Of a stretch of 29,943 bases of DNA, positions 7,755 to 29,943 are shown one piece after another. The stretch is from positions 1 through 29,943 of the IMG/VR virus record IMGVR_UViG_3300021389_000102; one strand, given 5' to 3'. The position numbers were made by a program, and so were the translations under genes. Below the pieces are notes generated by a model, which saw only the letters and a program-made list of their open reading frames with translations, was not told where the DNA came from and made no database searches. Position 1 is the stretch's first letter. Every line of letters begins with the position of its first letter. Source of the stretch: a virus.

Positions 7755-7774
7755 TTTTATGTAAAAATACAAAA
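7755..7774 (-). repeat. Repeated 20-nt structural-gene leader, portal copy
   Basis: The 20 bases here (plus strand ttttatgtaaaaatacaaaa) are identical to those at 21762-21781. Both lie about 10 nt upstream of a minus-strand ATG (portal and tape measure). On the minus strand they read TTTTGTATTTTTACATAAAA and contain TATTTTTA, one base off the TAnnTTTG box. Probable phage promoter or translation leader. Confidence 0.5.
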
Positions 7775-7789
7775 TAATAAATTCTTTTT

Positions 7790-17653: not shown

Positions 17654-17679
17654 TTGTAAAAATAAAAAAATATTTACAA
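17654..17679. promoter_or_regulatory. Inverted repeat TTGTAAA-N12-TTTACAA upstream of the HTH gene
   Basis: Perfect 7-base arms at 17654-17660 and 17673-17679, 12-nt AT-rich spacer, centred about 30 nt upstream of the HTH start. Arm spacing puts the half-sites close to two helical turns apart, as expected for a dimeric repressor operator. It may instead be a chance palindrome in AT-rich sequence. Confidence 0.45.
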
Positions 17680-17773: not shown

Positions 17774-19765
17774 TTAGAAAGTAACTTTAAAATCACTTGC
17801 AATATCATCATCTTGATTTGGTATGTGCATAATCACATTAAATGTATTTCTTTTAACATTATAAGTCATTGAATCCATTATACAGCTTACTGGCTCTCTT
17901 AAAACAGAAGATCCAAAATTGATCCAAATTTTATTATGTAATCCAATAGGATCATTTTCTAAATTATATAAAGATCCTTCATATCTAATCAAATGAGATC
18001 TATAATCATTAATTACTTGTTGAGTAATAATTTGATCAATAGATTTAACAAAATTTGAATTATTATCTCTAGGTCGTATAAATTCAGAAACCTGGACATT
18101 TCTATAATTATTAGATGAAAGCTGTATGCCATCTAAACTTAAAACACCAGTAACATTACTTGCTGAACTTCTTACTCTTTGATATTCAAAACCATCAATA
18201 TTGGCAAAAAATTCAGTTCTCTTATTGTTTTCAAACCTTTCATAATACAACTCAATATTGTCATAATAAATTCCATTTAAACCAGTAGCGACTTGAGTAT
18301 ATGGTTCATATAAATCAATAGTCAATTCCCCAGTTATTGGAAAAGTTGGCAATTCATAAGTAAATTTTTCCCAAGTATTTTTAGAGTTTGATTCTTGTAT
18401 GTTGGTTGTGTCTGTTGTGGTCCATGTTTGATCACTAGCTTTATAATAATAATTTTGAGTAGCACCTGGACCAGTTTCTGCTAAATGTAATTTAAATCTA
18501 AAACTTAAATTTTGAGCATTTGAGTTTGCATCCATATAAGAATTAATACAAAATTTATATGCTAAATGTGTTGAATTATAAGCATCAATTGTTTTAGATA
18601 TTGTCTTTCTAGTGCCAGTTTCATTTGTTTGTGTTTGTGTATTTTCATAACTTTTTCTGCCTTGTTTAGCAAATGTAGTTGAAATGGCACCTGGTGATGT
18701 TGTGCTAGTAGATGAGTATGTGGTCCAACCAGCAGTATCATTTTCAAATCCAGCATTAGTTATATAATTAGTGCTTAAATATTGACTGGTTTGGTGCTTA
18801 ATATTATATTGATTTAATGGTCGCAAATACTCTTTTGTAAGATTATTACCAATAGGTTGTAAATTTGATGGAACTTGTTTTAAGACATTGATGTTAGATG
18901 TTGATTGATGTGTACCTTGATAATTATATATAACAAACTCAGGCAATTCAGTACCATTTGAAACTAAATTACTAGCTTCTGATGCTCTAATGCCAGTTGG
19001 AACAGTACCACCTTGAGCAGTAGATGCACTTGCACTTTTAACAGCTTGACCAGAATAGCTAGAATTATTTATTATATACCATCTACCATAACTCTGAAAT
19101 ATCCTAGCGTTAGTAATTTTTAATATTTGATCTAAAACAAACTTTGCATTGTTAATATTATATTTATCCTTTTGTAATGTATATGGCGATATGTTTAAAA
19201 CATCATAAACACTATAAACAGTAGATCCAGGATTTAAAATATAAATATCTTGACTAACATAAATATCTAGTTGTAAATCTAAATTATTTAAGCAATTGGT
19301 AATCCAATATCTGGCAGTTTGTATTGATGCTGATGATGTGTCAAGAGGCATATCAAATGCATCTAATGTGCCTAAACCATCAAATGCAGTCAAAGTTATT
19401 GGAAATGGAGTGGCAGTAACAGCTTCTTTAAATTGATCTACTACAAGCCATCCTATCCAATATGTTTGATAATTATTAGAGCTATCCTTATAAGATATTT
19501 TAACCTGATATTCTCTTTCATCTGATGCATAAAAATCATCATAACTAACAGTATCTGTAACTAATAAATTTAAAGTGCATTGTGATCCCTTAATTGGTGA
19601 ATAAAAATTGTCATTACTTTCCCAAGTTATTTCACATGGATCTTTAGTTGCAACAATAGGATAAATTGTTCCAGAGCTGCTATAATTTTTTTTTAAAATT
19701 TCTATTTTTTTCTCATTTTCTAAATCATCAGAAAACTCTAATCTATATTTTACATTATATGCCAT
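17774..19765 (-). CDS. Large tail-tip / baseplate-hub-like protein with a carbohydrate-binding-like insert
   Basis: 663 residues. The N-terminal ~330 residues ('YRLEFSDDLENEKKIEILKK', 'CTLNLLVTDTVSYDDFYASD', 'YWIGWLVVDQFKEAVT', 'FVLDQILKITNARIFQSYGR') match a protein encoded after the tape measure in many Bacteroidota siphophages, probably combining distal-tail and hub roles. Residues ~335-520 look inserted: 'NYITNAGFENDTAGWTTYSS' is the opening of CBM_4_9-type carbohydrate-binding beta-sandwiches, and 'GIYYDNIELYYE' is their typical end. The C-terminus returns to the hub-like pattern ('DNNSNFVKSIDQIITQQVIN', 'GSVLREPVSC'-like region). It shares one base with the tape measure gene. Likely involved in host surface binding. 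Confidence 0.75.
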   Translation of the reverse strand: MAYNVKYRLEFSDDLENEKKIEILKKNYSSSGTIYPIVATKDPCEITWESNDNFYSPIKGSQCTLNLLVTDTVSYDDFYASDEREYQVKISYKDSSNNYQTYWIGWLVVDQFKEAVTATPFPITLTAFDGLGTLDAFDMPLDTSSASIQTARYWITNCLNNLDLQLDIYVSQDIYILNPGSTVYSVYDVLNISPYTLQKDKYNINNAKFVLDQILKITNARIFQSYGRWYIINNSSYSGQAVKSASASTAQGGTVPTGIRASEASNLVSNGTELPEFVIYNYQGTHQSTSNINVLKQVPSNLQPIGNNLTKEYLRPLNQYNIKHQTSQYLSTNYITNAGFENDTAGWTTYSSTSTTSPGAISTTFAKQGRKSYENTQTQTNETGTRKTISKTIDAYNSTHLAYKFCINSYMDANSNAQNLSFRFKLHLAETGPGATQNYYYKASDQTWTTTDTTNIQESNSKNTWEKFTYELPTFPITGELTIDLYEPYTQVATGLNGIYYDNIELYYERFENNKRTEFFANIDGFEYQRVRSSASNVTGVLSLDGIQLSSNNYRNVQVSEFIRPRDNNSNFVKSIDQIITQQVINDYRSHLIRYEGSLYNLENDPIGLHNKIWINFGSSVLREPVSCIMDSMTYNVKRNTFNVIMHIPNQDDDIASDFKVTF

Positions 19766-21753
19766 TATATAATTCTGTTTCTGTTGCTGTTTGCTCTTTC
19801 TAATACTACTACTAGATCTTGTCCTTTTAAGGTAAATTGTCCGCCTACTTGTACTTGAGCAGCACCTCTATCTCCAATCATTGATTTTAGCTTATCTAAG
19901 GGAGCAACCACCTCTGGATTTGATCTAGCTCCAGGATACTCTCCAATGGTCGCAAGAGTTGGTGTTGTTACAATACCGCCAGATGCTAGTTTCACTCCAC
20001 CAGTACCCTTGTCGCCTCCACCTAAGCTAATACCAGTTAAAGCTCCAAATATGCCAGTAAAACTTGTGGCAATACCCTTAATTTTAGTTATTCCAATACC
20101 ACCCAGTAATGTGCTTAAAACTAAAGCCGCAGCAGCAGCCGCAATTAATTTTTTAATCATTGGTATTAAAGCATTAGTAATAGATTTTATAAAACTTTCA
20201 CCTTTTGCAATTGCATCAAATGCTTGACCAAAAGCAAATATAAATTGTTCACCTAACTCTCCAATAACACCATCAAGCTCAAAAAACTTTTCTTTTGTTA
20301 CTGTTGTTTTATCGCCAATTTGTTTCATGTACTCACTTAATAAACCAACCCACTCTGGTAAACCACCCTCACCGCCACCACCTGGACCAACATTAAACCA
20401 CTCAAAAAAGCTTGAAATTTTACTTTTTAAATCAGTAAAAGAGCTTTCAATTTTTTCTTTTGATGTGTATTCCAATCTATTACTTAGTGCATTACCAATA
20501 GCAGTACCAGCTAAATCACCAATGTCCTCACCTAGTTTTTTTGTTATATCTTTTGATTTTTGAAACCCATCTTTGATGGCTAACTGCATTCCAATTGGAT
20601 TAAATTTGTTTTTAGCCACCTCAAAAAGAGTTGCAAAACCATTGATTAATTGATCAACACCAGCTTTCATTGTTAATATAGCGGTTCCAAAAACAACTTT
20701 TATAGCTTCAATTAACATTCTAAACTCAAGCGAGTTGTTATACAAGTCAACAAACTTATTAGATAATTCTACTACTGTATCTATTATGCCATCCCAGTTT
20801 TTATATATTACAAAAGCAATTGCAGCTAAACCAGCCACAACAATGCCTATTGGACCAGATAAAAAAGCTAAAGCAGTTGCAAGTTTTCCTAATATAAACA
20901 ATGCTGGACCTAATGCACCAACTAACAACCCAGTTGTAATTATAATACTTTTAGTTTTACCATCTAAGCTAATAAACTCAGACACTAAAGTGTTTAATTT
21001 AGTAACTATTTTAGTAAATGCTGGTAATAATAAATTACCAAAAGATTGACCAAGTTGTTTTGTTCCTTCTGTAAATATTCTCATTTGGTTTGCAGCACCT
21101 CCAGATGTTCTTGCAAAATCACCTTGAGCATTCGTGGTTTGTGATAAAATGTAGGCAAATCTTAAATTAACTTTTTCAGCTTGAGTCATGTCTTTAACAT
21201 TCTTTTGAATGCCCTCAGATAGTGCAAACGCCTTTAAGTTTGCCTCAGTCATTACAATTCCTAATTTTTTCAATGATTCTGTTTCACCAGTAAAAACACC
21301 AGCCAAAGCAGTTGTAGCTTGATCAATACCTATGTTTTTAAAAGATGCTAAATCTCCAGCTAAACCAACCATTGATTTACTCATGTCAGCAGCTTGTTTT
21401 TTATTAATACCCATTGATGTTGCCATATCACCAAAAAGAGCTGCCATGTCTAATGCTGAACCTTCTGCAATACCAAATTCAGTTAAAGTCGTTTTGGCAA
21501 AGCTTTTGACTGCTTTAGAAGATGATCCAAATGCTACATTTACTTTATTTAAACTTTCCTGGAAATCACTTGCTAATTTAATTGCCGCACCACCAGCTAA
21601 GGCAATTGGTCCAGTAGCAAATATTGTTAAACTTTTACCAAGATCGCTTGTTGTTTTGCCAAATTTTTTTAATTTTTTACTAGCACTATCTAATGATCTA
21701 TTTAATTTAGATGAATCACCAATAATGTTAACTCTTAAATCGTTATTTGCCAT
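19765..21753 (-). CDS. Tail tape measure protein
   Basis: 662 residues of the PhageMin_Tail / TP901 tape-measure type. Residues ~60-220 carry the conserved core ('FQESLNKVNVAFGSSSKAVK', 'ALDMAALFGDMATSMGINKK', 'GVFTGETESLKKLGIVMTEA', 'AYILSQTTNAQGDFARTSGG'); residues ~269-317 are strongly hydrophobic, and an Ala-rich hydrophobic stretch lies in the C-terminal third, as in membrane-inserting tape measures. By the usual 0.15 nm per residue rule the tail would be about 100 nm long. It lies between the assembly chaperone and the tail-tip gene, as expected. Confidence 0.92.
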   Translation of the reverse strand: MANNDLRVNIIGDSSKLNRSLDSASKKLKKFGKTTSDLGKSLTIFATGPIALAGGAAIKLASDFQESLNKVNVAFGSSSKAVKSFAKTTLTEFGIAEGSALDMAALFGDMATSMGINKKQAADMSKSMVGLAGDLASFKNIGIDQATTALAGVFTGETESLKKLGIVMTEANLKAFALSEGIQKNVKDMTQAEKVNLRFAYILSQTTNAQGDFARTSGGAANQMRIFTEGTKQLGQSFGNLLLPAFTKIVTKLNTLVSEFISLDGKTKSIIITTGLLVGALGPALFILGKLATALAFLSGPIGIVVAGLAAIAFVIYKNWDGIIDTVVELSNKFVDLYNNSLEFRMLIEAIKVVFGTAILTMKAGVDQLINGFATLFEVAKNKFNPIGMQLAIKDGFQKSKDITKKLGEDIGDLAGTAIGNALSNRLEYTSKEKIESSFTDLKSKISSFFEWFNVGPGGGGEGGLPEWVGLLSEYMKQIGDKTTVTKEKFFELDGVIGELGEQFIFAFGQAFDAIAKGESFIKSITNALIPMIKKLIAAAAAALVLSTLLGGIGITKIKGIATSFTGIFGALTGISLGGGDKGTGGVKLASGGIVTTPTLATIGEYPGARSNPEVVAPLDKLKSMIGDRGAAQVQVGGQFTLKGQDLVVVLERANSNRNRII

Positions 21754-21761
21754 AAGTAGAT

Positions 21762-21781
21762 TTTTATGTAAAAATACAAAA
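21762..21781 (-). repeat. Repeated 20-nt structural-gene leader, tape measure copy
   Basis: Identical to 7755-7774 upstream of the portal gene. It begins 9 nt upstream of the tape measure ATG and immediately follows a terminator's T run, so it may supply a new promoter after the terminator. On the minus strand it contains TATTTTTACATAAAA. Confidence 0.5.
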
Positions 21782-21808
21782 AAAATAAGCCACTTATTTT
21801 AGCGACTT
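21778..21808 (-). terminator. Rho-independent terminator between the tail chaperone and tape measure genes
   Basis: Minus-strand stem AAGTCGC / GTGGCTT (7 pairs, two wobbles), 8-nt loop, one A, then eight T. The stem overlaps the last codons and stop of the frameshifted chaperone frame. Confidence 0.7.
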
Positions 21809-22126
21809 TTTCTTTTCAATTAATTTTTTAAATAATAACATTTCAGCTTTGGTTGATTTAGGTTTACCTCTTTCTAAATAAACATCTTGAGGCAATGGGA
21901 AAAGTTTATCAGGTGTAATCATTTGTGCTTTTTTTTGACAATTTATATTGTATAACATTGCTGCTAAATATCTTGTCTGCTCCCATTGTAAATTACATCT
22001 AATCATGTGAGCTTCACCTAGCAAATGATTTTCCTTCCAAGTATTAATCCAAAACGAATCTGGATCTATGCCAACTTGACCAATGTAAAAATCAAGTAAA
22101 CTATCCCAATCTAGTTGGCTACTTAC
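21794..22126 (-). CDS. Tail assembly chaperone C-terminal part, reached by -1 frameshift (GT-type product)
   Basis: This frame is open from 22126 down to 21794 and encodes 110 residues beginning VSSQLDWDSLLDFYIGQVGI and continuing with 'WKENHLLGEAHMIRCNLQWE' and 'QTRYLAAMLYNINCQKKAQM'. It has no convincing start of its own. It is in the -1 frame relative to the preceding gene and joins it at GGGAAAG (22132-22126). The fusion would be 128 + 110 = 238 residues, the equivalent of lambda gpGT: the long form bridges tape measure and tail tube subunits. The 'WxxTWKExxLLGEAxMI' style of sequence is common in the chaperone C-termini of Bacteroidota phages. Confidence 0.82.
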   Translation of the reverse strand, partial: VSSQLDWDSLLDFYIGQVGIDPDSFWINTWKENHLLGEAHMIRCNLQWEQTRYLAAMLYNINCQKKAQMITPDKLFPLPQDVYLERGKPKSTKAEMLLFKKLIEKKKSLK

Positions 22127-22509
22127 TTTCCCTCTTTTGTTTGCTTAGTAGTTTTTTTGATATTTCTTGCAACGCCCATGTTAAGATCATTACCAAGTAT
22201 TCTTGATTCCATCATTGAATTTACAATGTCATTTAGTTTATCAGCTTCAATATCTTCAAGCCACATACCAACTTTAAACTCGTTATATGTTATCTCGTTG
22301 CCTTGTTCTTGATCATTTGCCAATAAACCAGAATACACTAAACCTATGATTGCCTTTATAGAAATACCATCTTTAAAAACATCGCCAATATTTGACAATG
22401 GTACGTTTAAAAATTCAGTAAAATTTGACCAGAAATTCATAGAAAAATGCATAGTTCGCATTTTGCCGCCTATTTTTAAGGTATAGTAACCTCTTTTCTT
22501 GTTTGCCAT
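22123..22509 (-). CDS. Tail assembly chaperone, short form (gpG-like)
   Basis: 128 residues encoded between the tail tube and tape measure genes, the canonical position of the tail chaperone. Sequence features: 'YYTLKIGGKMRTMHFSMNFW' at the N-terminus, helical 'ISIKAIIGLVYSGLLANDQE', 'FKVGMWLEDIEADKLNDIVN', and a basic C-terminus (KKTTKQTKEGK). The last codons are GAG GGA AAG TAA, containing the slippery heptamer G GGA AAG; most ribosomes stop here and a fraction continue into the -1 frame. Confidence 0.88.
   Translation of the reverse strand: MANKKRGYYTLKIGGKMRTMHFSMNFWSNFTEFLNVPLSNIGDVFKDGISIKAIIGLVYSGLLANDQEQGNEITYNEFKVGMWLEDIEADKLNDIVNSMMESRILGNDLNMGVARNIKKTTKQTKEGK
22126..22132 (-). promoter_or_regulatory. 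Programmed -1 ribosomal frameshift site GGGAAAG
   Basis: The heptamer G GGA AAG is in the correct phase (X XXY YYZ) and is the same heptamer used in phage lambda G-GT. It is followed directly by the zero-frame stop TAA. After slippage the next codon is GTA, which opens the 110-residue downstream frame. Confidence 0.85.
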
Positions 22510-22572: not shown

Positions 22573-22989
22573 TTATGCTTTTGAGATAGCTCCAGTAACT
22601 GTAATAGATCCAGAAAAACTTACTGGTGATTCCATTTCAGCACTCATTTCAACTGAATTTAAAAATCCCTCTCCGCTATATACAGCATCCCCAGATACAC
22701 CAGTTCCAAATGACCAATCAACCTTAGTACCAGCTATTAAAAGATCTGCTGCTTCAATAGCATTGTTTGCATGATCATAATTTACTAACCCCTCAAAACT
22801 AATTTCACCACTTTTAACTCCAGAAATTACCTCTTGAAAACCAGCACTTGTTTTTGTTGTAGCTTCTGGTAAATCATTTGATAGAGAAAGTGTACAAGAT
22901 GTTGAATGACCTAAAACTGCTGGTGTTGAGCCATCAGCTGCAAATTTTAACAATAAACTGGTCCCATTAAATACTCCTACTGTTGGCAT
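22573..22989 (-). CDS. Major tail tube-like protein A (138 aa)
   Basis: A tail-tube family protein (TP901-1 / phage_tail_2-like): 'GVFNGTSLLLKFA', 'LGHSTSCTLSLSNDLPEATT', 'KTSAGFQEVISGVKSGEISF', 'YSGEGFLNSVEMSAEMESPV', 'SFSGSITVTGAI'. These repeated beta elements and the closing 'S-x-x-x-G' strand define the tube subunit fold. It lies directly upstream of the chaperone, the usual place for the major tail protein. It is clearly related to the next gene upstream (155 aa). A box TATATTTG at 23033-23026 lies ahead of it. Confidence 0.85.
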   Translation of the reverse strand: MPTVGVFNGTSLLLKFAADGSTPAVLGHSTSCTLSLSNDLPEATTKTSAGFQEVISGVKSGEISFEGLVNYDHANNAIEAADLLIAGTKVDWSFGTGVSGDAVYSGEGFLNSVEMSAEMESPVSFSGSITVTGAISKA

Positions 22990-23045: not shown

Positions 23046-23513
23046 TTATACATCTTCCCAATCTTTTGCTAGATCTTCCCACTTACTAAATACATTTTCC
23101 CATGTCAAACCAACAGTTGCATCAGTAATTGAAAAAACACCAGTAAGGTTTATTTCTAAATTAAAACTGGTTGCATTTTCAAACTCAGCTGTTTCATCAA
23201 TGGATTGTATAAATCCCTCACCTCTTAATACAAGTTTTGTATTTACTGGATCTTTAAAATAAAATACAGCTTTTTGTTTAAGGATCATCATGTCTGTTAG
23301 ATCCTCAAAACTTAATGTGTCGTTATAATCAGTTAGACACTCGCAACTTACAGTACCGCTTTTAACACCAGGAATTACCTCTTTCCAGCCACCACTATCT
23401 TTATTAGTAGATTCTGGTAAATCAACATTTATATTAAAGCTAGTGCTTTTAGAATGCCCTACAACTGTTGTATCTTTTAATAACAGAAAGCTAGTGGCAT
23501 TAATAAGTGCCAT
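23046..23513 (-). CDS. Tail tube-like protein B, paralogue (155 aa)
   Basis: Shares with the 138-aa protein the blocks 'GHSKSTSFNINVDLPESTNK', 'SGGWKEVIPGVKSGTVSCEC', 'LRGEGFIQSIDETAEFENAT' and 'SFNLEINLTGVF', in the same order, so the two are tandem paralogues. It has an extra C-terminal tail of ~20 residues rich in Trp, Glu and Asp (ENVFSKWEDLAKDWEDV). It could be a second tube subunit, a tail terminator-like or decoration variant, or the tube protein proper. It starts 1 nt after the 79-aa gene. Confidence 0.8.
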   Translation of the reverse strand: MALINATSFLLLKDTTVVGHSKSTSFNINVDLPESTNKDSGGWKEVIPGVKSGTVSCECLTDYNDTLSFEDLTDMMILKQKAVFYFKDPVNTKLVLRGEGFIQSIDETAEFENATSFNLEINLTGVFSITDATVGLTWENVFSKWEDLAKDWEDV

Positions 23514-24702: not shown

Positions 24703-27700
24703 TTATTTTTTTAATTGTTTAATTTCTGCTTTTAACTCGTTTATTTCTGTTTTTAAATCTTTTATTGCCTCAATAAATACACCAGCCATTTTACCATAAT
24801 CAACTCCATAAATATCATCATTTTTATCATAACTTACAACTTCTGGCAACACTTCATTGACCTCTTGTGCAATAACTCCTATTTTTTTTGATTTATCAGT
24901 AGCATCTGTTCTATTATAACTTACTCCTCTAAGTTTTGTTACTTTTTCAAGTGCATTATCAATAGTAACTATATTTTCTTTTAATCTTTTATCTGAATAA
25001 GCAATAACATCAGCAGTAGCAGTAAATGTGCCACCAACTTCAAATTTAAAATAACTTGTAAAAGTAGTGTCATACCAGTACCATTCAATTCTGTGTGATT
25101 GACCACTTGGTCGTTTTGATATATGCCACATTTTTTGTGAACCAGAAAGTGTTGATGATAAATTTAAATTTGCATAACCATCCCCAAGATTGTGTGCGCC
25201 AATAGTTGCTTGAGTACTGCTACTTGATTGAGCTAAAATACCATAACCATCCAAATCGCCGCCACCATTAGTTCCATCATAATTTACTGTTAATGCTGGT
25301 CCATTATTATTTATTTGTACAACATTAGTTGTGCCTTGTGGGTGAAATGCAATTATACCATTACTATTATAAATATTTAATGAGCTTGGTCCACCATAAG
25401 ATGTGTAAGCACTTCCAGCTTTAAATATTTCACCACTTCCACTATTTGATCTAATTACTAAATCACAGTATTGAGTATTTGATGAATCACCTACTTCAAA
25501 TACAGCAGTAGTTAAATCATTTGTAAACACAGCTAGTTTTGAATCAGAAGATGTTGCATTTATATAACGACCTCTAAATTCATAAGTTCCAGTATCACTT
25601 GGCTCACCCCAATAAACATTTTTACCAGTTTCGTAATTATAAACACCAGCAACAGTCGGATGTCCAGATAAATGTGGTATTCTCCAATAATCACTACTTT
25701 GTGTGTCTGAATCTACTTTATAAGGATAATATTGCACATTAGTACGATCGCCACTATTAGTTCCTTGTGCTGGCACAAAAAAAGTAGTACCATAGGTTGT
25801 TGTATTTTGTTTTACTGTTAAATTTGATGCACCACCTTGTGTTGTCCCAGTTCCAATATTAAATTCAATTTGACCATCAGGTAAACCAATAAGAGAGGAT
25901 TTTTTACCACCATATTTATTTACCCAACCAGATGATGTATATTGAGTGTTACCAGTAATATAACAGTCATAAGAGTTTCTAAATAAAACACCAAAAGCAC
26001 CAGCACTAAACATTTCATAACTACCTGATATTGTTAATGAATTACTGCTGCCAAGTTCAAAAAGATGATTTGGTCCATCATTAGCAATACCTACATTACC
26101 ACCTGATAGAATAGTCATCACTTCATTACTTACACTATTCCAAATTCTATATCTATCAGCATTAGTAGTTAAATATGTAAGCCAATGAGTTGTGCCATTT
26201 GATAACCCTAAAGATGCATTACCTGAGCTAACAATAGAAATACCATTTGTTCCTGACATTTGTGAATCTGGATCGTTAGTGCCAACTCCAAAATTAAATG
26301 ATGATCCATTAAAAGCACCAACATCATTATTATTAATTCTAAAACGTAAATCTTGACCAGATGGTGCATTTAAATATGTTTGACCACTAGCGTTTTGTAG
26401 CAAAGCATAAGAGCTAGTACTGTTTTGATCAATGTGAGAAAAACCCGCGTGATCAGCGTGTCCGACATAACCAATATGTACCCTACCAAATTCATAAGTT
26501 GTGTCTTGATTAAAACTTGCTTGAATATTTCCAGAACTATCTATATCCATTGATACATTGCCAATTCCTGATCCAGTTCTAAACTTTAATGAACTTCCAG
26601 CAACAGTTAAAGCATCCCAAGCTGTTAAAGCTGAATTATGCCCTCCAACAATGTTTTCGGCTAGAGCAGTATCTAAAAACCCTATAATAACTTTTCTTTG
26701 CCCACTTTGTCCAAATACAGCCGCACCATCCCATACAGTTGATGGTCCTACAGTATCTCCAACTAACAAAGTTCCATTATTATTAATCGTTAATCTAGTT
26801 ATATTGCCAGTTCTGAAATTCATATAATCTCCAGCGCTACCATAAATATTTATAGAGTTTCTGTCATTTTCTGTTCCAGCACCTTGTAATCTTAACCAAC
26901 CACTTGGACCAGCACCATTTAAATAAACACCATTACTAGCTGAGTAATAAGATAACGCACCATCAGCAGCATATAAAGTTCCAGTTTTAGCTGATAATTT
27001 AATACCCTCACTATTATATAAAGTAACTCTACCATCTGTATTTATAGTTAATCTTTCTGTTGCAGCAGTATAAAGAAACATAACATCTGTAGCATGGTCA
27101 TATCTAACCTGACCTCTCCAATTTGCATCAGCATCACCAAATAATATTCCTTGATTTTGACCGGCTGGAGATAAAAAGGATAAAAAATTATCATTTGCAC
27201 TTGATTCTAATGTTAAAGTTGTATTTACATATGCAGTTACACTACCAGCCGATCCATTTTGTACATGGAGTTTAGTATCAATACTAGAGTCAGTGCCAAT
27301 TCCTACATTACCATTACCACCAATAACCATTCTTAAGTTACCAGTTCCTTTGTCAGCACCAGTTGCAGTATGGAATTTTATATCAGCAGCATCATCTGCA
27401 TATGTTGTTTGTATATGTAAATCACCTTGACTGTTATCATACCATATTTGTGCGCCCTCAACACCTATTGCACTATCTGATTTTAAATTAATAATTGGAT
27501 CATTTGCATTAGCAGATGTTTCTAAAGTTATGGATGGTGTTGATTGTGTAATATGTAAACTTGATGTTGGAGTTGTTTGACCAATACCTATTGATCTTTG
27601 AAAATAGTTTGTTCCACCTTCAACAAAAGCAACATCAATATCATTCCAAGGTCCGATTGTAACTCCAGCATTACCATCTATATTTAAAGTATCTGTGGCA

Positions 27701-29943
27701 TGTCCATATATAGTTCCACTTTGCCAATATTGACTGAAAGCATGTATTGTATTTCTATTAGTACCCCCATGCAAAAACCTTACAACACCATAATCACTAG
27801 TTCCATTTCCACTTTCTATTCTTAAACCTTGATTGTTAGATGCATCATCACCTATATATAAGTTTCCACTAGCTATTAAATCACCAGATGATTCATACAT
27901 AACACTATCAGTCAATGTATTTGCATCTGACCATTTAGGAATGTAATTTGCAGTTCCTGATCCATCTACAACACTACCATCTGTTTCTATTATATTTCCA
28001 CTTGAATCAACAGCTAGGTTTTTAGCAACAGTTCCAGTATGTGTACCACTTCCATATGATCCAATTTTGATTAATCCATCTTTATTAATTCTCATTCTTT
28101 CAACAAAAGCTACTCCATCACCTGATCGACCACCAAAAACTAAATCTCCAGCTGGATTATCACCAGTTGTTGTTCTAACACTTGCAATAAAATTTGTATA
28201 ATGAAAACCACCATGACCAAAAGTCATTCCAACAGCATTGCCAGCAGTAGTATCTGAATTGCTTATCTCTAAAGCATAAATATTTGTATCTCCTATAAAA
28301 TTACCAGAAGCAGCACTTACATCAACATGAACTGGATTTTGAGGATCTGTTGTTCCTACACCTAAGTCATCATCAACATATAAATCACCATAAAACCTTG
28401 CTGATGCATCACTTACAACTAATTGGTGAGTACTTGTATTGTTTCCACTTCTTATATGTACACTACCTCCATCACCACCACTAAGAAATGTGTGTGTTCC
28501 ATCAGTTAAAATAGCATATTCAGAACCAGACATATTACTAGTTCCCCACATTACATAATCAGTATTGCCTGTCCAATTTCTTATAACAGCACCACCATCA
28601 ACACCTTGTGTTGTTAAGCTGCCAGAGGTTTGAATGTTACCAGTATCAGAAAATATTGTTAAAGTATCACCACTTCCACTATTGGCAATAAATTTCATGT
28701 TTTGATCAATTCTAAATCTATATGAATCCTCACTTGTACCATCAGAGCTAGTTCCCCACCTTTGTAGGTTTTGGTCACCATCTTTTACTATTGCAACTTG
28801 AGTTCCACTTACAGCACTATTTGAATTTACATATAATCCCTCACTAAAAATATCATTTGCAACATTAACATCACCAGTAGATTTAATCCTCATTAACTCA
28901 CTTCTGCTAGTAGAATTAACTCCAACAAAAAACACATGATCATCTCCATCTGCATATGTTGAATAAACTAATGTTGAGTTTTCGACACCAAATCCATAAA
29001 ATTCATAATCGTTATCAGCACCCTCATATAAAACTATTTTTCTTGTTTTAACATCATTTTCAAATTGTAATGTACTAGAGTTTGTTCCATCTGTTAAATA
29101 AACATCACCAACACAATATAAATCATCTAAAAATTTACTAGTACCACCAATAAATAATTGACTAGCAGTAGAATCCCACTTTATACTAGCATCATTTGCT
29201 GTATCGTTACCAAAGTATAATTTAAGATTATCTACTATATGTGGCGATCTACCAAATGGCACTGTGTTTGTAGAGCCATCTAATCTAAAGTATTCAATAA
29301 CACCACCAGATCCATTATCAGATTTAAATACTATGTCTTTGTCATTAGCTAAATTTTGTATAATTAAATCACCAGTTTGGTTTTGTAGGTATGAATCTAC
29401 AGCATCATGGTATATTTTAAAATCAGTATCATCACCGAAATTAATCATAGTATCATCAATAAAATTCATATTCCTATCAACTCTATTAGGAACATCATTT
29501 GCCCTACCAGCACCAAATACTTTTATTAATCCATTACTTGCATGGGATTTAATTACTACTGCTATTTTTTGAACTTGACTTGTATATGCAGTTGGTTTAG
29601 TTGCAGTAAATTCACCAGCAGTTTCAGATACATATAATTCATCGCCTATGCTAAAACTAGAGGTGTCAATGCCACTAACTGCTCCAAACATAACTGCTTC
29701 ACCCTCTGCCTCATCTGCAATAGTTTCATTCAAAACTCCTATTGCTGGCATTTTAGCAGCATCATTTGCATCTGCTGCAATAACTTCAATAACATTACCA
29801 CTAGGTGGTGTTGCTGTTGGTGCTGCATGAACTACAACTCCTTTTGCAAGTTCACCACCACTAACATTTTTTACAGTTACATCAATTCTTTTAGCAACAT
29901 CAGCACTACCAGTATTATCATCTACATACTTTTTAGTAGCAAA
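24703..29943 (-). CDS. Very long tail fibre with C-terminal S74 chaperone (partial, start outside window)
   Basis: The frame is open to the right edge, giving at least 1746 residues; the Met at 29751 is internal, since upstream codons encode fibre-like sequence (ATKKYVDDNTGSADVAKR). Near the visible N-terminus 'GDELYVSETAGEFTATKPTA' and 'VFGAGRANDVPN' form a module common in marine phage fibres. The centre is built of beta-helix-like units with recurring 'G-N-V-G-I-G-T' turns (for example 'GNVGIGTDSS', 'DLGVGTTDPQ', 'SIGIGQTTPT'). The last 97 residues (24706-24996) are a peptidase S74 intramolecular chaperone: 'SDKRLKENI', 'GVIAQEVNEVLPEVV', then a coiled coil. It trimerises the fibre and then cleaves itself off. 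Confidence 0.92.
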   Translation of the reverse strand, partial: FATKKYVDDNTGSADVAKRIDVTVKNVSGGELAKGVVVHAAPTATPPSGNVIEVIAADANDAAKMPAIGVLNETIADEAEGEAVMFGAVSGIDTSSFSIGDELYVSETAGEFTATKPTAYTSQVQKIAVVIKSHASNGLIKVFGAGRANDVPNRVDRNMNFIDDTMINFGDDTDFKIYHDAVDSYLQNQTGDLIIQNLANDKDIVFKSDNGSGGVIEYFRLDGSTNTVPFGRSPHIVDNLKLYFGNDTANDASIKWDSTASQLFIGGTSKFLDDLYCVGDVYLTDGTNSSTLQFENDVKTRKIVLYEGADNDYEFYGFGVENSTLVYSTYADGDDHVFFVGVNSTSRSELMRIKSTGDVNVANDIFSEGLYVNSNSAVSGTQVAIVKDGDQNLQRWGTSSDGTSEDSYRFRIDQNMKFIANSGSGDTLTIFSDTGNIQTSGSLTTQGVDGGAVIRNWTGNTDYVMWGTSNMSGSEYAILTDGTHTFLSGGDGGSVHIRSGNNTSTHQLVVSDASARFYGDLYVDDDLGVGTTDPQNPVHVDVSAASGNFIGDTNIYALEISNSDTTAGNAVGMTFGHGGFHYTNFIASVRTTTGDNPAGDLVFGGRSGDGVAFVERMRINKDGLIKIGSYGSGTHTGTVAKNLAVDSSGNIIETDGSVVDGSGTANYIPKWSDANTLTDSVMYESSGDLIASGNLYIGDDASNNQGLRIESGNGTSDYGVVRFLHGGTNRNTIHAFSQYWQSGTIYGHATDTLNIDGNAGVTIGPWNDIDVAFVEGGTNYFQRSIGIGQTTPTSSLHITQSTPSITLETSANANDPIINLKSDSAIGVEGAQIWYDNSQGDLHIQTTYADDAADIKFHTATGADKGTGNLRMVIGGNGNVGIGTDSSIDTKLHVQNGSAGSVTAYVNTTLTLESSANDNFLSFLSPAGQNQGILFGDADANWRGQVRYDHATDVMFLYTAATERLTINTDGRVTLYNSEGIKLSAKTGTLYAADGALSYYSASNGVYLNGAGPSGWLRLQGAGTENDRNSINIYGSAGDYMNFRTGNITRLTINNNGTLLVGDTVGPSTVWDGAAVFGQSGQRKVIIGFLDTALAENIVGGHNSALTAWDALTVAGSSLKFRTGSGIGNVSMDIDSSGNIQASFNQDTTYEFGRVHIGYVGHADHAGFSHIDQNSTSSYALLQNASGQTYLNAPSGQDLRFRINNNDVGAFNGSSFNFGVGTNDPDSQMSGTNGISIVSSGNASLGLSNGTTHWLTYLTTNADRYRIWNSVSNEVMTILSGGNVGIANDGPNHLFELGSSNSLTISGSYEMFSAGAFGVLFRNSYDCYITGNTQYTSSGWVNKYGGKKSSLIGLPDGQIEFNIGTGTTQGGASNLTVKQNTTTYGTTFFVPAQGTNSGDRTNVQYYPYKVDSDTQSSDYWRIPHLSGHPTVAGVYNYETGKNVYWGEPSDTGTYEFRGRYINATSSDSKLAVFTNDLTTAVFEVGDSSNTQYCDLVIRSNSGSGEIFKAGSAYTSYGGPSSLNIYNSNGIIAFHPQGTTNVVQINNNGPALTVNYDGTNGGGDLDGYGILAQSSSSTQATIGAHNLGDGYANLNLSSTLSGSQKMWHISKRPSGQSHRIEWYWYDTTFTSYFKFEVGGTFTATADVIAYSDKRLKENIVTIDNALEKVTKLRGVSYNRTDATDKSKKIGVIAQEVNEVLPEVVSYDKNDDIYGVDYGKMAGVFIEAIKDLKTEINELKAEIKQLKK
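24706..24996 (-). other. Peptidase S74 intramolecular chaperone domain of the fibre
   Basis: 97 residues starting at SDKRLKENI. In the known family (endosialidase, K5 lyase and neck-appendage chaperones) autocleavage occurs next to this serine, with a conserved Ser/Lys pair; both Ser and the following Lys are present. The 'LKGVSY-like' block (LRGVSYNR), 'IGVIAQEV' and 'YGVDYGKMAGVFIEAIKDLK' are intact. Confidence 0.9.

Follow-up and report, generated by a model that had tools for sequence, protein, structure and literature searches.

How does a phage translate a reading frame that follows directly on another, in a different phase, and begins without an evident start codon? We address this question for two frames, G and T, in an IMG/VR virus record of 29,943 bases (GC 30.5%), the whole of which is referred to here as the window. 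The named genes of the window all lie on the minus strand and encode a tail fibre (24703-29751), two major tail protein paralogues, the G/T region, a tape measure protein, annealing and exonuclease proteins, a primase-helicase, a terminase, a portal, a protease and a major head protein. G and T sit between the major tail protein and the tape measure, in the order MTP-G-T-TMP. Taking together a slippery heptamer, its phase, a conserved -1 frame, this gene order and a covarying 3' stem, all of which can be read directly from the sequences, we put the probability at about 93% that the locus is a programmed -1 ribosomal frameshift that yields a gpG/gpG-T pair of tail assembly chaperones.

The last codons of the G frame are GAG GGA AAG TAA, and the first base of the heptamer is the third base of GAG, which sets the X XXY YYZ phase (Table 1). 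Read from the last G of the heptamer, the -1 frame continues as GTA AGT AGC CAA and so forth (VSSQLDWD...). An initial annotation of this DNA had placed the in-phase heptamer at the end of the short form and described an open -1 frame of 110 residues; a re-reading of the minus strand reproduces both exactly, with the open frame running to 21794. It had also equated the heptamer with that of lambda G-GT, and the lambda sequence, when measured, has the same G GGA AAG in the same phase. The motif GGGAAAG proves nothing by itself, since the window holds four copies where 2.7 are expected by chance; position, phase and conservation lift this locus above chance.

Table 1. Features of the G/T region and its neighbours (window coordinates).
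Feature	Position	Strand	Basis
Major tail protein, second paralogue	23046..23513	-	phrog_1407 E 2e-20; Pfam Phage_tail_2 above cut-off
Major tail protein, first paralogue upstream of G	22573..22989	-	phrog_1407 E 7e-23; Pfam Phage_tail_2 above cut-off
gpG-like putative tail assembly chaperone, 0 frame, 128 aa	22123..22509	-	ORF; ends ...TKQTKEGK, then stop
Slippery heptamer G GGA AAG	22126..22132	-	in phase; retained in 159/182 distinct relatives
0-frame stop TAA directly after heptamer (N = 0)	22123..22125	-	reading of frame
Second 0-frame stop TAG, back-up stop	22111..22113	-	12 nt past start of first stop codon
gpT-like extension, -1 frame, 110 aa plus stop	21794..22126	-	open frame; stop 21796..21794
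TTG, sole separate-start candidate in the initial annotation; judged not used	22022..22024	-	relatives' start codons, coding constraint
Whole 3' stem-loop, proposed frameshift stimulator	22070..22119	-	MFE -13.3 kcal/mol; support = covariation
5' arm of 3' stem, GCCAACU	22113..22119	-	begins 6 nt after heptamer
3' arm of stem, AGUUGGC (Gln wobble, Val codon, Gly codon)	22070..22076	-	folding and covariation
Tape measure protein, next gene downstream	19765..21753	-	phrog_1535 E 5e-50

Scans of viral contigs and genome contigs gave 182 distinct complete G-T junctions, of which the first 133 compared were used for codon-level analysis and the remainder were collected later. All 182 place T in the -1 frame with respect to G. 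The slip site is GGGAAAG in 159, GGGAAAC in 2, AAAAAAA in 18, AAAAAAG in 1 and a doubtful AAACCCC in 2. A sequencing error or a decayed gene would explain the split frame and nothing else about the locus; recurrence of the same junction in 182 distinct sequences, with purifying selection on both the G and the T parts, already refutes this explanation, which we give practically no credence.

Codon usage at the junction is equally constrained. In the 133-relative set the codon that opens the heptamer encodes Glu, Lys, Val, Ala, Ser, Thr, Gln or Gly, and across these eight amino acids the wobble base before the slip is invariably G among GGGAAA relatives. The glycine codon of the heptamer is GGA at 124/124 aligned sites and the lysine codon AAG at 124/125, against a usage of 21% for each across the whole G-T set. 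Apart from the Ala codon after the start, no other conserved degenerate codons are so nearly free of synonymous change as those of the heptamer.

The initial annotation saw no plausible start for T and anticipated that automatic annotation would report the frame from a TTG. Both points hold: a mechanical ORF list gives 21794..22024 from that TTG, and gene callers will thus report a truncated T. Taken at face value, this output suggests that T is a separate gene, translated from TTG 22024 or by ribosomes that reinitiate at the G stop, with the heptamer incidental, and a distant Cellulophaga homologue of T is indeed annotated as a gene of its own with an ATG. Among the 133 relatives, however, the first ATG, GTG or TTG of the T frame falls anywhere from residue 4 to residue 68, a start codon is never conserved, and most have none at the site of TTG 22024. 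The -1 frame of the window contains no ATG, GTG or TTG between the heptamer and this TTG, and in 46/133 relatives the frame opens just 3 nt before the heptamer. Residues 5-34 of T all precede the TTG; they are conserved and change at rates of 0.20, 0.16 and 0.40 by -1-frame codon position, with the third position 2-2.5 times higher. Given this conservation, the third-position changes and the lack of a conserved start, the -1 frame is evidently translated from the heptamer on, and we reject a start at TTG 22024. A separate T gene would also leave the conserved G GGA AAG codons and the stem described below unexplained, and a Shine-Dalgarno-like tetramer is found at 0/29 genes of the window. We consider it improbable.

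As the signal for the frameshift, the initial annotation named the heptamer, correctly, but missed a stem-loop 3' of it. Folding the relatives one by one led to a 7-bp stem whose two arms covary (Table 1). Over 63 aligned rows, 90% of cells are paired, double-change cells number 54 against 17.7 after shuffling, and covariation reaches 0.380, compared with 0.212 shuffled and at most 0.123 with the partner slid. All seven pairs form in 82 of 98 gapless rows, and the other 16 rows have one to three. At the bottom of the stem, 43 rows pair G-C and 42 pair C-G, an exchange that entails a Ser/Thr change on one side and, on the other, a synonymous change at the third position of a glycine codon. CCCAGCU/AGCUGGG is one of the arm pairs that occur naturally. 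On a tree built without the stem columns concerned, the two sides switch in agreement in 7/7 independent contrasts (p 0.016). Among all 5-bp helices from -28 to +128 around the junction, the stem has the highest covariation, in a scan of 82 stem-bearing rows for which the ranking is informative and the pairing percentage is not. The case for the hairpin rests on covariation, because its energy in the window is by itself unexceptional (z -1.35).

GGGAAAG junctions collected later from other clades tell the same story: 27/30 have 6-7 of the 7 pairs at a spacing of 5-6 nt, with new versions of the stem (GCCGAUU/AAUCGGC and CCCGGCU/AGCCGGG), in a test that admitted spacings of 4-9 nt, a range broadened once the 5-nt version was known. 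Slid controls of +3 to +5 and -4 to -5 gave zero 7/7 matches, while those of -1 to -3 are not clean controls, since in many relatives pairing extends further up. The stem is absent from the A-run relatives (0/18) and from about 25 GGGAAAG relatives, mainly a clade typified by L240. RNAalifold returned no main stem when run on all stop-adjacent relatives, because one clade lacks it; the stem appears in the stem-bearing subset. The helix scan revealed no conspicuous pseudoknot partner for the loop, Rfam gave 0 matches in the window, and a search for an upstream Shine-Dalgarno-type stimulator found none. The L240-like clade (L240 5995-6060 and relatives) retains GGGAAAG-TAA and has short alternative hairpins (GUCC...GGGAC) at about the place of the stem.

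Stimulators of -1 frameshifting typically begin 5-9 nt after the heptamer (PMC5009743, PMC4066793). The stem, at 6 nt in the window and 5-6 nt in relatives, lies inside this range and shows compensatory changes. On this comparative evidence, the hairpin is a previously unreported conserved element at standard stimulator spacing, and it would be expected to raise frameshifting. Bacterial dnaX and IS911 likewise have a hairpin at short spacing after the heptamer (PMC4066793, PMC3711429), but both add an upstream Shine-Dalgarno-like stimulator, of which we see none here.

The probable host may offer a reason for this difference. Since the best cultured matches of the portal are Cellulophaga phages and the window genes are devoid of Shine-Dalgarno-like tetramers, the host is probably a member of the Bacteroidota. 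Flavobacterium genes likewise lack such a tetramer (PMC6847099, PMC9976891). The genome-contig scan yielded two MAG contigs and no others, one binned as an archaeon and the other as a gammaproteobacterium; we left both out of the host assignment because viral contigs are easily mis-binned. Genes of this kind make an upstream Shine-Dalgarno stimulator unlikely; it is probably unavailable in the host lineage, and the hairpin would serve in its place.

Flavobacterial phages provide a cultured comparison. In the Cellulophaga phages of the phi18:2/phi17:1 gp54-gp55 type and in Flavobacterium phage 11b, a tail protein, a G-like, a T-like and a tape measure gene follow in the same order and T is homologous by profile (hhalign probability 96%, E 2e-9 for phi18:2 gp55). 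Unlike the window, these phages have A9/A10 runs or an A-rich heptamer instead of GGGAAAG, and their G sequence is not alike. In phi18:2 (L339 28499-28539) and phi12:1 (L343), T follows an A9 run in the +1 frame relative to G; in phi17:1 (L341 about 697-716), it follows an A10 run in the -1 frame. The homologous T genes of all three are annotated as separate genes. This variation of run length and frame relation between near-identical Cellulophaga phages is compatible with slippage of polymerase or ribosome on the run.

Slippage of RNA polymerase could be used by the A-run relatives and by the cultured flavobacterial phages, which reach the same T in differing frames after A10 (phi17:1) or A9 (phi12:1/phi18:2). 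As the source of the fusion in the window it is very improbable, because GGGAAAG is not a long homopolymer run and the stem is placed as ribosomal stimulators are. One clade of relatives, L349-L368, has no stem, and its slip site is an A-run (A AAA AAA; in L349 near 1470-1501, for instance) that precedes the stop by 21 nt; judging from this arrangement, slip site and stimulator seem to have been exchanged together.

We next consider what the two frames encode. G has a weak match to phrog_2115 'tail protein' (E 1e-5). Its AlphaFold model (pLDDT 80) finds best viral structure matches in BFVD at E 1e-6, and several lower-ranked viral matches are annotated as tail assembly chaperone; comparison with the HK97 chaperone 2ob9 gives a Z of only 2.3, and a PDB fold search gave no convincing match. 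T matches phrog_16333 (E 1e-5); its model is poor (pTM 0.35), and searching with it for similar folds gave no informative match. A tblastn search with G and T against 50,697 phage records returned nothing significant, hhalign against lambda G and T gave a probability of about 0.1% for both, and the Pfam Phage_tail_T profile scored 13.3 bits, under its cut-off of 25.9. The proposal of a tail assembly chaperone made by frameshifting is nonetheless borne out by gene order, conservation across the 182 relatives, the absence of a conserved start and the covarying stem. The label 'lambda-type' fits the mechanism: G and T appear lambda-like in their working, and homology to lambda, for which we tested, was not found by sequence comparison.

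The resemblance to lambda G/G-T includes the heptamer and its phase, a site between the major tail protein and the tape measure, and a short form with a -1 extension. The differences are the distance from heptamer to stop (15 nt in lambda, 0 here), the lack of sequence relation of G and T to their lambda counterparts, and the covarying 3' stem; we know of no proven 3' stimulator for lambda G/G-T.

From these elements we infer that ribosomes slip here, at a rate stimulated by the hairpin. Most ribosomes would end at TAA and produce gpG. A minority would slip back one base on G GGA AAG, the two tRNAs re-pairing on GGG AAA, and would then read the T frame to give a 238-residue G-T fusion with the predicted junction peptide ...TKEGKVSSQLDWDSLL.... 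The hairpin, with its 7-bp base 6 nt past the heptamer, would hold the ribosome with the slip site in the P and A sites and set the rate. By analogy with lambda, gpG may coat the tape measure and the T part may recruit the major tail protein.

What, then, is the significance of the stop codon that adjoins the heptamer? The 0-frame stop directly follows the heptamer in 120/182 relatives and is 3, 9, 12, 15 or 21 nt away in the others. Heptamer-to-stop distances in phage tail chaperones average 26 nt in one set and 36 nt in another (PMC10885494), and stops directly after a slippery heptamer are known in Rous sarcoma virus and barley yellow dwarf virus (PMC4373837). The adjacent stop, which the initial annotation called unusual, is so when set against these phage means and against lambda, but it has precedents in the eukaryotic viruses and is not strictly kept among the relatives, 120 of which share it. 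The state changes between N = 0 and N > 0 about nine times on the protein tree, at least three of them on supported branches. In 39 of 105 stop-adjacent relatives, the window included, a second in-frame stop lies 12 nt on, in the same place as the stop of the N = 12 relatives, and in two relatives within N = 0 clades (L010 and L062) the first stop is lost and the second used; L010 reads TCA in place of the TAA. Because the state has been gained or lost repeatedly and N > 0 relatives are common, adjacency is, as far as sequences can tell, common in this group and unusual for phage tail chaperones, and not essential.

The adjacent TAA might still be a working part of the signal. If the ribosome slipped after translocation, the stop would stand in the A site, release factor would compete with slippage, and the gpG : gpG-T ratio would read its supply; this would refine the frameshift explanation and not replace it. 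In the usual model of slippage, AAG and not the stop occupies the A site, so competition there requires a late slip. The competition that the initial annotation proposed between termination and slippage in the A site therefore holds only if slippage is post-translocational (the E/P-site model) and fails in the usual model. Stops at N = 0 in the 182 relatives are TAA (107) or TAG (13) and never TGA, yet TGA ends 21/133 T genes of the same group. RF1 reads both TAA and TAG. The absence of TGA is suggestive, but confounded by relatedness, which weakens the count. In a bacterial system, a stop after the heptamer lets release factor suppress -1 shifting (PMC4373837). Against a working role stand the relatives with N = 3 to 15, which keep the heptamer and mostly the stem, the repeated changes of state on the tree, and the loss of TAA in L010 and L062. 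We regard such a role as unlikely. Slightly more doubtful is the fuller version, in which a late slip with TAA or TAG in the A site lets release factor supply set the gpG : gpG-T ratio and the hairpin is the only other stimulator, on host ribosomes that ignore Shine-Dalgarno sequences.

The frameshift site of Rous sarcoma virus has a 3' RNA stimulator. Barley yellow dwarf virus also has one (PMC5009743), so that both viruses resemble the window beyond the position of the stop. They differ in using eukaryotic ribosomes and other genes, whereas here the virus is bacterial, the heptamer is GGGAAAG and adjacency is not strictly kept. The kind of signal is thus already known, and the version with a conserved heptamer and hairpin is new; weight shifts from the stop codon to this conserved pair. 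The locus provides a testable tail-chaperone frameshift signal for a widespread group of marine phages of which no close relative has been cultured, and it combines a covarying 3' hairpin with a slip site that immediately precedes a stop. Should the hosts be Bacteroidota, as genes without Shine-Dalgarno sequences and Cellulophaga phage homologues suggest, the locus could serve as a model of how frameshifting is stimulated when ribosomes ignore Shine-Dalgarno sequences.

Two further observations concern the surroundings of the junction. The neighbouring major tail protein paralogues share a 70-bp stretch with 79% DNA identity. The motif TTTTTTGTATTTTTAC occurs in five intergenic copies on the minus strand (21768-21783, 7761-7776, 809-824, 17656-17671 and 1242-1257; at most 2 mismatches) against 0.5 expected, mostly just before gene starts, including those of the tape measure and the portal, and is perhaps a promoter of the Bacteroidota type.
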